From an uncultured Bacteroidota bacterium (GTDB lineage: Bacteria > Bacteroidota > Bacteroidia > Flavobacteriales > Flavobacteriaceae), in contig CACNQM010000004.1 in NCBI GenBank assembly GCA_902622595.1, positions 1-64,000 on the forward strand: a stretch of 64,000 bases of DNA, read 5' to 3'. The translations under genes were made by a program, and so were the position numbers. Positions 14,793 to 17,913 of the stretch are shown one piece after another (position 1 is the first letter of the stretch; each line of letters opens with the position of its first letter). The notes under the pieces were generated by a model that was not told the DNA's origin, did not search any database, and saw only the letters and a program-made list of their open reading frames with translations.

Positions 14793-15227
14793 ATGCAAAT
14801 GATAAAGTTTATTAGCTGTCCAGATGGTCTAATAGAGAAAGATATTTTAAAGGATACTATTACCTATTTTGCTGACAAAGACGGCTTTAAAATAAAAAAG
14901 TTAGAGTACAACTTTGTTGATTTAAGTAAGATGCAGTCTCTGAATAACAATTTTCTAAATCACAAAAATGATACAGATATTATAACCTTTGATTACTCTG
15001 AAGGCAAAACAATTATAGCAGAAGTTTTTATATCCATAGAGATGATGAGAGATAACGCACAAAAATATGTTCAAAATGTTGATAATGAGTGTATTAGGTT
15101 GATTTCTCACGGTCTTTTCCATTGTCTTGGCTATAAAGACAAATTATCTGAAGAAAAGGAGATTATGAGAAAAAAGGAAGAAGAGTTTATATTTGCTGTT
15201 TCACGTGAAACCAATCAAGATGTTTAA
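14793..15227 (+). CDS. ybeY: Endoribonuclease YbeY (rRNA maturation factor)
   Basis: Zinc-dependent RNase for 16S rRNA 3'-end maturation and 70S quality control. About 144 residues, with the family segments LNNNFLNHKNDTDIITFDY and ISHGLFHCLGYKDK. The zinc motif is HGxxHxxG, but GYKDK stands where many phyla have GYDH, so the third histidine ligand is not at its usual place. The ATG at 14793, or a second at 14799 (MIKFISCPDG), lies just after the -7 box. The last codons contain a parS site and overlap mnmG by 8 bases. Confidence 0.9.
   Translation: MQMIKFISCPDGLIEKDILKDTITYFADKDGFKIKKLEYNFVDLSKMQSLNNNFLNHKNDTDIITFDYSEGKTIIAEVFISIEMMRDNAQKYVQNVDNECIRLISHGLFHCLGYKDKLSEEKEIMRKKEEEFIFAVSRETNQDV
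15197..15212. promoter_or_regulatory. parS centromere-like site 1 (ParB binding)
   Basis: The sequence TGTTTCACGTGAAACC matches the conserved palindromic ParB target TGTTNCACGTGAAACA at every position except the last. It is embedded in the 3' coding end of ybeY, 8 bases upstream of the mnmG start. A second site lies 1.9 kb away. No parA or parB gene is in the window. Confidence 0.85.
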
Positions 15228-17091
15228 TTCTCAATTTGATGTTATTGTTGTGGGCGGTGGGCATGCCGGAGCCGAAGCTTCCGCAGCTGCCGCTAATCTT
15301 GGTGCAAAAACACTTTTGGTAACAATGAATCTTCAAACTATTGGGCAAATGTCATGTAACCCAGCTATGGGTGGGATTGCAAAAGGACAAATTATTAGAG
15401 AAATAGATGCAATGGGCGGTTATAGTGGTATAGTTTCTGATTTAACTTCAATTCAGTTTAAAATGTTAAATAAATCAAAGGGTCCAGCAATGTGGAGCCC
15501 TAGGGTTCAATCTGACAGGGCGCAGTTCGCTTTAAAGTGGAGAGAAATGTTAGAGACTACGTCTAACCTTGATTTTTACCAAGACATGGTAGTGGGCTTG
15601 ATTGTAGAGAAGAATGTAATTAAAGGTGTTATGACAGGCTTGGGTAATAAAATATATTCTCGTGCTGTTATCTTAACAAACGGAACCTTTTTAAATGGTT
15701 TAATTCATGTTGGAGACAAAAATTTTGGAGGGGGCAGAGCAGGTGAAAAACCCTCTACTGGAATTACTGCAAACCTTGAGTCATATGGTTTTAAATCTGG
15801 TAGAATGAAAACAGGAACACCGCCAAGAGTAGACGGTCGATCTTTAGATTATAGTGTTATGGAAGAGCAGCCAGGAGATAAAAATCCAGGAAAGTTAAGC
15901 TATTTACAAACTATTCACCCCTTAAAGGAACAAATTAGCTGTCATATGACATATACAAATAAAGAAGTACATGATATTATGGCCAGTTCATTCGATAGAT
16001 CCCCAATGTTTAACGGTAGTATAAGTAGTACAGGACCTAGATATTGTCCTTCGATAGAGGATAAAATCCATAGGTTTTCTGAGAAGGAAAGACACCAAAT
16101 ATTCGTTGAGCCTGAAGGTAAGAAGACGGTTGAGGTTTATGTTAATGGATTTTCAACTTCAATGCCAGAAGACGTTCAATATACTGCTATTAAAAAAATT
16201 AAAGGTTTTGAAAATGTCAAGTTTTTTAGACCTGGATATGCTATAGAGTATGATTATTTCCCTCCTACACAATTAACACTTACTCTTGAAACCAAACTGA
16301 TTGAAAATTTATTTTTTGCTGGACAGATTAATGGAACAACTGGATACGAAGAAGCTGCAGCACAAGGTTTAATGGCCGGAATTAATGCAGTTTCAAAAGT
16401 ATTTGAAAAAGAACCCTGTATATTAACAAGAAGTGAGGCTTACATAGGGGTGCTTATAGATGACTTAATTACAAAAGGAACAGAGGAGCCCTATCGAATG
16501 TTTACTTCTCGAGCAGAATACAGAACTCTTCTTAGACAAGATAATGCAGATATAAGGCTGACAGAGAAATCCTTCAAAATTGGTTTAGCCAAAGAAGAGA
16601 GGTATGCTCGTGTATTAGAGAAACAAGACAAAGTAGAAGACTTTGTTAAATTTTTTAATGAAACAAGTTTTGATCTTGATGAGGTTAATGAAATATTGGA
16701 GTCTGTAAATTATGAACCGGTTCCACAAAAAGGAAAAATCGATAAGATATACGCAAGGCCAAATATTCAACAAAAGCACATTAGAAAATTAAGTTCAGTA
16801 GAAAATTATATTGAAACTAATAAATTAGACCATGAAGTTTTAGATCAAACAGAGATCCAAATAAAATATAAAGGATATATAGAAAAAGAAAAAGCAAATG
16901 CAGATAAACTCCAAAGGCTTGAGGATATTAAGATACCTGTTAACTTTGATTATAGTCCCCTTGCCTCTCTTTCTAATGAAGCTAAAGAAAAATTAAACAA
17001 AATTAGACCATCAACATTATCTCAGGCATCAAGAATCAGTGGTATTAAACCAAGTGATATTAGTGTTTTACTAGTCAAGATGGGTAGATAA
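15220..17091 (+). CDS. mnmG: tRNA uridine-5-carboxymethylaminomethyl(34) synthesis enzyme MnmG
   Basis: FAD enzyme that, with MnmE, modifies the wobble uridine of several tRNAs. The 623-residue protein begins MFNSQFDVIVVGGGHAGAEA with the FAD-binding GxGxxG-type motif at about residues 12-17. CNPAMGGIAKGQIIREIDAMGG and the PRYCPSIEDKIHRF segment are signatures of the family, as is the C-terminal GI.PSDIS..L. The ATG at 15220 overlaps the ybeY stop. An upstream in-frame ATG would lie inside ybeY and parS. The gene is bracketed by two parS sites. mnmG is near the origin in many bacteria. Confidence 0.95.
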   Translation: MFNSQFDVIVVGGGHAGAEASAAAANLGAKTLLVTMNLQTIGQMSCNPAMGGIAKGQIIREIDAMGGYSGIVSDLTSIQFKMLNKSKGPAMWSPRVQSDRAQFALKWREMLETTSNLDFYQDMVVGLIVEKNVIKGVMTGLGNKIYSRAVILTNGTFLNGLIHVGDKNFGGGRAGEKPSTGITANLESYGFKSGRMKTGTPPRVDGRSLDYSVMEEQPGDKNPGKLSYLQTIHPLKEQISCHMTYTNKEVHDIMASSFDRSPMFNGSISSTGPRYCPSIEDKIHRFSEKERHQIFVEPEGKKTVEVYVNGFSTSMPEDVQYTAIKKIKGFENVKFFRPGYAIEYDYFPPTQLTLTLETKLIENLFFAGQINGTTGYEEAAAQGLMAGINAVSKVFEKEPCILTRSEAYIGVLIDDLITKGTEEPYRMFTSRAEYRTLLRQDNADIRLTEKSFKIGLAKEERYARVLEKQDKVEDFVKFFNETSFDLDEVNEILESVNYEPVPQKGKIDKIYARPNIQQKHIRKLSSVENYIETNKLDHEVLDQTEIQIKYKGYIEKEKANADKLQRLEDIKIPVNFDYSPLASLSNEAKEKLNKIRPSTLSQASRISGIKPSDISVLLVKMGR

Positions 17092-17092
17092 A

Positions 17093-17108
17093 AGTTCCAC
17101 GTGAAACA
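17093..17108. promoter_or_regulatory. parS centromere-like site 2 (ParB binding)
   Basis: AGTTCCACGTGAAACA differs from the ParB consensus TGTTNCACGTGAAACA only at the first base. It starts 2 bases after the mnmG stop. Its CACGTG core supplies the GTG start codon of the following methyltransferase. Confidence 0.85.
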
Positions 17109-17913
17109 ATTTCTAAAAAAAGATTTAAAATTTTTAAGCACTAAAGATTATATTGTCTCAAACGAGACCTATAACCTTTATCTTGATTTAAAAACTAAAA
17201 TTGTTTGGACGGAAATCAATAAGCAGCAGAATCTTAATAAATATTATGAACACGCTAATTATCTTCCTCATAATAAAAAGATTGGGCTATTGTCCATTTT
17301 ATACAAGATTTCACAGAATATAATGTTTTCATATAAGTACAAGGTCTTACAAAAGAAATTACAATCATCAAGGTTAATTTTAGACTATGGATCTGGAGAC
17401 GGACAGTTTGCTGGATATTTACAAAAAAAGAATATTCATGTTCACACATATGACCCAATAATAAAAAACCGAAACAAGACACAATTAGCTGATAATCAGT
17501 ATGATATGATTATGTTGTGGCATGTTCTTGAACACATTTTAGACATTCAAGCTGGCATTTTTACAATAAGAAAAAAATTAAAAAATGACGGGGCCATTGT
17601 TGTGGCAGTTCCAAATAGAGACTCTTTTGATTCTAAAATATACAAGAAATACTGGGCTGCTTGGGACGTTCCTAGACATTTATATCATTTTAATCATAAA
17701 TCTTTAATTGATTTTATGAAAAATAATGGGTTTAGTTTAATTTCAAAGCACCCTTTATTCTTAGATTCATATTACATTTCCTACTTGTCCTCCAAATATA
17801 AAAATTCATTTTCTCCATGGATTAACTCATTGCTAATAGGCACTATTTCAAATATACTTGGAGCTATCACATCAAAATATTCGTCTTCTTTTTATGTGTT
17901 TAAAAAAGATTAA
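17101..17913 (+). CDS. Class I SAM-dependent methyltransferase
   Basis: A 270-residue Methyltransf_11/23-type protein. Motif I is LDYGSGDGQFAGYL at about residues 98-111, the acidic residue after strand 2 is in HTYDP, motif IV is DMIMLWHVLEH, and VVAVPNRDSF follows. The WDVPRHLYHF segment is common in methyltransferases acting on lipids or saccharides, but the substrate is unknown. The start is GTG at 17101, inside parS site 2 and 9 bases after mnmG. The 3' end overlaps holB by 4 bases on the opposite strand. Confidence 0.85.
   Translation: MKQFLKKDLKFLSTKDYIVSNETYNLYLDLKTKIVWTEINKQQNLNKYYEHANYLPHNKKIGLLSILYKISQNIMFSYKYKVLQKKLQSSRLILDYGSGDGQFAGYLQKKNIHVHTYDPIIKNRNKTQLADNQYDMIMLWHVLEHILDIQAGIFTIRKKLKNDGAIVVAVPNRDSFDSKIYKKYWAAWDVPRHLYHFNHKSLIDFMKNNGFSLISKHPLFLDSYYISYLSSKYKNSFSPWINSLLIGTISNILGAITSKYSSSFYVFKKD

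Follow-up and report, generated by a model that had tools for sequence, protein, structure and literature searches.

Two 16-bp sites on either side of the gene mnmG in an uncultured member of the Flavobacteriaceae are very probably chromosomal parS sites, the bacterial centromere, which probably lie in or near the origin domain and would be read by a ParB protein whose parAB operon is encoded elsewhere in the genome. The sites are within a stretch of 64,000 nucleotides (contig CACNQM010000004.1 of assembly GCA_902622595.1, positions 1 to 64,000; hereafter the window). An earlier note on this DNA had read them as parS sites, and that reading passed all of the sequence tests that we ran; the binding of ParB to them is predicted from sequence.

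Two Putative parS Sites Flank mnmG

The genes and sites at the locus are arranged in the window as follows:

14793 to 15227, plus strand: ybeY, rRNA maturation RNase (Pfam YbeY, E = 3.6e-23; TIGR00043 over cut-off)
15197 to 15212, no strand assigned: putative parS site 1, TGTTTCACGTGAAACC, within the 3′ end of ybeY and 7 bp 5′ of the mnmG ATG (15220)
15220 to 17091, plus strand: mnmG (gidA), 623 aa, ATG start confirmed (TIGR00136, E = 3.4e-253, over cut-off, the score being computed on the frame from 15223)
17093 to 17108, no strand assigned: putative parS site 2, AGTTCCACGTGAAACA, one base past the mnmG stop and holding the GTG start (17101) of the next gene
17101 to 17913, plus strand: class I SAM methyltransferase with its GTG start inside site 2 (Pfam Methyltransf_23, E = 1.6e-21)

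The sequences and coordinates of both sites were exactly as the earlier note had given them, as was their placement, with site 1 in the coding end of ybeY, site 2 supplying the GTG of the methyltransferase and mnmG between the two. The ybeY start at 14793 is the first in-frame ATG of an open frame that was listed as beginning at a TTG (14772). The ybeY stop codon occupies 15225–15227, site 1 falls in the last ybeY codons (read as VSRET), and ybeY and mnmG overlap by 8 bp. At the other end of mnmG, its stop lies upstream of the GTG at 17101 in the same frame, and the three codons between them include no ATG, GTG or TTG. An ATG that is present at site 2 in loci L205 and L206 reads AAG in the window and in L204, and as a result of this change the earliest possible start (ATG, GTG or TTG) past the mnmG stop in that frame is the GTG inside the putative parS site.

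Comparison of the sites with the ParB consensus showed that both are close to it. Site 1 differs from TGTTTCACGTGAAACA at one base, the last, and site 2 differs from it at two, bases 1 and 5, or at a single end base if C or T is accepted at base 5. Against the 16-bp palindrome TGTTNCACGTGNAACA each site has one mismatch, at an end base. The earlier note, in which each site is one end base off the consensus, had assumed that either C or T is allowed at base 5.

A search of the window for the strict palindrome with up to three mismatches found 3 matches against a mean of 0.41 in shuffled sequence, with at least three in 3 of 100 shuffles, and, taken alone, this is weak evidence that the sites are non-random. 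The whole-genome test is stronger. The genome searched comprised 1,340,558 bases (1.34 Mb) in nine contigs and was 85.7% complete. The search that the earlier note had proposed, for the palindrome TGTTNCACGTGNAACA with up to two mismatches, gave 14 places in this genome, as against 5 with the reversed control. Single-mismatch matches made up four of the 14, and of these only sites 1 and 2 retained the CACGTG core. The exact 14-mer GTTYCACGTGRAAC was present in two copies, both flanking mnmG and 1.9 kb apart, and its control was absent. Many equally good matches across the genome, which had been named as grounds for abandoning the parS reading, were thus not found. Rather, the two exact 14-mers in 1.34 Mb have the distribution expected of chromosomal parS, few in number and clustered instead of scattered.

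Conservation of the Pair at mnmG

In the loci of the best 80 of 563 confirmed MnmG relatives, mnmG was flanked on each side by a site no more than 500 bp away, without exception (80 of 80). These loci came from Aquimarina, Winogradskyella, Mesonia, Psychroflexus, MED-G11 and others, some of them uncultured, and together they held 181 exact sites and no copy of any of five altered patterns. At the downstream site of L214 and L218 the palindrome reaches 24 bp (CGAACGTTCCACGTGGAACGTTCG in L214), which is beyond the ParB site.

The exact motif was found in 147 of 149 genomes of the same family (one per genus, our own included), and the reversed control in 2 of the 149. By hand count, 121 of these genomes had two copies, 16 had more than two, 10 had one and 2 had none, and the spacing of two copies was mostly ~1.9 kb among the matches listed. 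The three nearest genomes keep both sites and have only two exact sites each. Genomes of genus g128 (e.g., G363, G171 and G347) were observed to have 3 to 10 exact copies per genome instead of two.

Across the phylum, own family included, 359 of 392 genomes had the exact motif. In other families it occurred within 1.5 kb of mnmG in 45 of 56 representatives (84 sites), a proportion that may be somewhat high since each family was represented by one hand-picked genome and a two-copy genome was sometimes preferred; the five altered palindromes were absent from the same DNA. The site lay upstream of mnmG, downstream of it, or on both sides, and in L322 the motif was present at the mnmG locus in an orientation that our script could not assign. 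The exact motif was absent within ~1.5 kb of mnmG in the other 11 representatives (L178, L187, L202, L306, L311, L313, L316, L320, L324, L328 and L331). Genomes G300, G161, G252, G321, G395, G435, G416 and G372 had parS motifs, none of which was within ~1.5 kb of mnmG. In some families the site has apparently been relocated relative to mnmG.

The Predicted ParB Reader

The earlier note had stated that parAB was not in the window and that ParB would be encoded elsewhere, and both genes were indeed located on another contig, C5, with open reading frames:

Contig C5, 9718 to 10479: parA, ParA-like ATPase (several ParA-type NCBIfam models matched)
Contig C5, 10481 to 11353: parB (L173), adjoining parA (TIGR00180 over cut-off)

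The genome therefore encodes both a ParA and a ParB, and this ParB, outside the window, is the sole one that was found in it. None of the ParA-type NCBIfam models was over cut-off for the ATPase among the 25 matches listed. One ParB match per genome was also the finding in seven of nine relatives.

The ParB could be aligned to solved ParB and Noc chains. It scored 209.9 bits with the Noc model, whose cut-off of 315 was not reached, and 157.7 bits with the shorter ParB domain model. Jalal and colleagues, in the part of their paper that was available, give R173 and G201 as the ParB type, with Q and R at these positions in Noc (PMC7383237). With residue numbering carried over via the GK.R motif, R173, N178, G201 and R204 were present in our ParB and in all nine of the ParBs fetched from the same family, so that the specificity residues at 173 and 201 are those of the parS type and not the Noc type. 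The same part of that paper describes six contact positions as conserved between ParB and Noc, 162 (Q) and 172 (S) among them, and positions 179 and 184 as variable in ParB (PMC7383237). Position 184 is K in our ParB and in all nine relatives, as in Noc. At the two contact positions, our ParB departs from this description with I162 and D172, and the nine same-family ParBs have Q162 with K or N at 172. We read our protein as a probable parS-type reader with some change at its DNA contacts, and the changes at 162 and 172 slightly reduce our confidence in the parS reading. I162 and D172 possibly represent drift at DNA contacts in a small-genome lineage.

Position Relative to the Replication Origin

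That parS sites lie near the origin is textbook knowledge, which the earlier note had cited. Such a placement was supported in four complete relatives. In them, the third-position skew, which was sampled in 20 stretches of 20 kb and has a resolution of about 150–220 kb, changes sign near parS, negative values giving way to positive ones; the change is gradual in G143 and weak in G078. When places were scored as origins from the skew, parS tied for best in G143, G087 and G059; in G078 it scored 1435 against a best of 1439, the best interval being ~105 kb away. In G059, the skew switch was placed at 371.6 kb by a 400 kb tile, ~11 kb from the parS pair. Overall, the sampled GC skew of the four complete relatives supports an origin that coincides with parS or is no more than about 0.1 Mb from it.

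The same placement did not receive this support in our own genome or in G532, a MED-G11 relative that shares the two exact sites. Our contig, C4, had no clear skew trend or switch. In G532 (20 stretches of 5 kb, an assumed genome length of 1.17 Mb) the skew had values of −0.055 ahead of parS and +0.004 past it (standard errors, about 0.02). The highest origin scores were at 555–660 kb, followed by 420–435 kb; parS is at 466 kb. Skew tiles of 40 kb in six other relatives were noisy and had no consistent switch.

The genes dnaA and parB were distant from parS in relatives. In six single-contig relatives, taken as circular and including the four sampled for skew, parS was 33–49% of the chromosome away from dnaA and 23–35% away from parB, and in our genome dnaA is on another contig than the parS pair. 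The origin score of dnaA was below zero in all four complete relatives and, in G143, was the lowest of all places, i.e., on the terminus side, which indicates that dnaA can mislead as an origin marker. The G143 dnaA (C1:25–1416) is at a terminus-type skew switch.

No cluster of at least three DnaA boxes was found in the window, either as TTATCCACA with up to one mismatch or as TTATNMACA. We rejected such clusters as pointers to oriC, as those of some relatives were at inconsistent distances from parS, from ~3 to 27 kb. In G023, six DnaA-box-like 9-mers were observed within 390 bp (C1:991529–991917), 5.6 kb from parS, and may represent a candidate oriC.

Smc and ScpA in Related Genomes

Smc was not over cut-off in any of 11 genomes of the same order, where the matches were weak and partial (up to 29.7 bits), and it was over cut-off in both of the two genomes tested from other parts of the phylum. 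The result was the same for ScpA, with 0 of 11 and two of two. The 11 genomes were our own (G000, 85.7% complete), nine more of its family and one of another family. A ParABS system of the Bacillus subtilis type that loads Smc-ScpAB, for which Smc and ScpA should be present, was thus not what we found, and based on these results partition here probably proceeds without the usual condensin loading.

Alternative Explanations for the Sites

The 16-mers might be kept for coding or expression and not for ParB, as the tail peptide of YbeY, as the start of the methyltransferase, or as a transcription terminator or operator in the vicinity of mnmG. In the window, each site does touch a coding end. In addition, in the 17 of 73 scored loci in which ybeY contains the closest upstream site to mnmG, that site always uses one ybeY frame, and the 10 inside-ybeY loci that were listed have a tail of FHVEQ or FHVEH, extended in some of them by several further residues. 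The 73 loci are those in which the YbeY end was recognised by our script, and L204–L206, whose motif differs, were left out of them. It is in these three loci and the window that site 1 uses another ybeY frame, the one that reads VSRET, which is evidence against a conserved peptide, and the 14-base core of site 1 is identical in all four while the adjacent codons vary. Further evidence against this explanation is that in 56 of the 73 loci the site is past the ybeY stop codon and, in different families, is upstream of mnmG, downstream of it or on both sides. In the best-80 loci the sites occurred in all three frames relative to mnmG, both upstream (41, 22 and 38 of 101 sites) and downstream (29, 25 and 26 of 80). 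Such variation in reading frame and placement indicates that the conserved entity is DNA rather than peptide. As the five altered palindromes were also missing from the same DNA, we regard a coding or expression role in place of ParB binding as very unlikely.

That the sites are chance matches to a palindrome draws on the window search with three mismatches, in which enrichment was mild (at least three matches in 3 of 100 shuffles). It is contradicted by the fact that the 1.34 Mb genome holds just two exact sites, which share a locus, and by the recurrence of sites on both sides of mnmG in every one of the best 80 of 563 loci, from which the altered patterns were absent; we consider chance to be a negligible prospect. 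A different possibility is that the sites are parS but are relic or secondary copies, far from the origin of a reduced genome and with little role in segregation. The uninformative skew in C4 and G532 fits this idea, as does the presence of dnaA and parAB on other contigs, and further sites could be missing from a genome that is 85.7% complete. Yet no exact site other than sites 1 and 2 was found in the genome, the three nearest genomes have kept both of them with no other exact site, and the parA and parB reading frames are open; we regard a relic or secondary status as very unlikely. We favor the reading of the pair as chromosomal parS in or near the origin domain.

Discussion

If the pair is parS, as proposed, ParB from the parAB operon on the other contig would recognise each 16-mer, be loaded there as a CTP-dependent clamp and then spread over the mnmG region. 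The parS pair probably belongs to the replication origin domain or lies close to it, and ParA would move the ParB-loaded sister regions apart after replication. We infer these steps, from ParB binding to movement by ParA, from the known biology of ParABS systems.

Bacillus subtilis, Caulobacter and Pseudomonas have chromosomal ParABS systems in which parS is close to the origin. The system described here resembles those in its 16-mer, in the R173 and G201 of its ParB, in having its sites in a short stretch and, in the relatives tested, in being on the origin side. It differs from them in that parAB and dnaA are away from parS and that Smc and ScpA were not over cut-off. In proteobacteria and firmicutes, origin clusters of mnmG-rsmG-parA-parB occur, with parS near mnmG (gidA) and the origin. 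The proximity of parS to mnmG, and probably to the origin, is shared with those clusters, whereas here mnmG is followed by the Methyltransf_23-matching methyltransferase and parAB is on another contig. The main survey of parS sites, that of Livny (2007), may list some of the sites considered here. In a partial coverage of the literature, judged by titles, none concerned parS bracketing mnmG in Flavobacteriaceae. Judged by sequence, the sites are genuine parS of a known kind, with a distinctive layout that is worth recording.

A 2023 Hi-C study of gut bacteria, as far as its available text goes, placed origins by parS clusters together with GC skew, reported that dnaA is not always at the origin, and found no known condensin in the two Bacteroidetes that it studied (PMC10197239). 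In these respects those bacteria resemble the genomes examined here. They differ in belonging to other families, and the available text makes no mention of mnmG or of a fixed two-site bracket (PMC10197239). Origins that dnaA does not mark have thus already been described for gut bacteria (PMC10197239). The available parts of PMC5771137 and PMC7203096 contained nothing on parS.

These data suggest that the mnmG-parS pair may serve as a simple sequence marker of the probable replication origin in Flavobacteriaceae. With few sites and usually one ParB, the pair would also provide a clean system in which chromosome segregation uses ParABS with no detected Smc-ScpAB. We hypothesize, at about even chances of being right, that in Flavobacteriales the chromosome is segregated by a minimal two-site centromere, which has flanked mnmG throughout the family's history and needs neither Smc-ScpAB nor a linked parAB or dnaA. 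It would act either through ParA and ParB alone or through an unrecognised condensin loaded by ParB.
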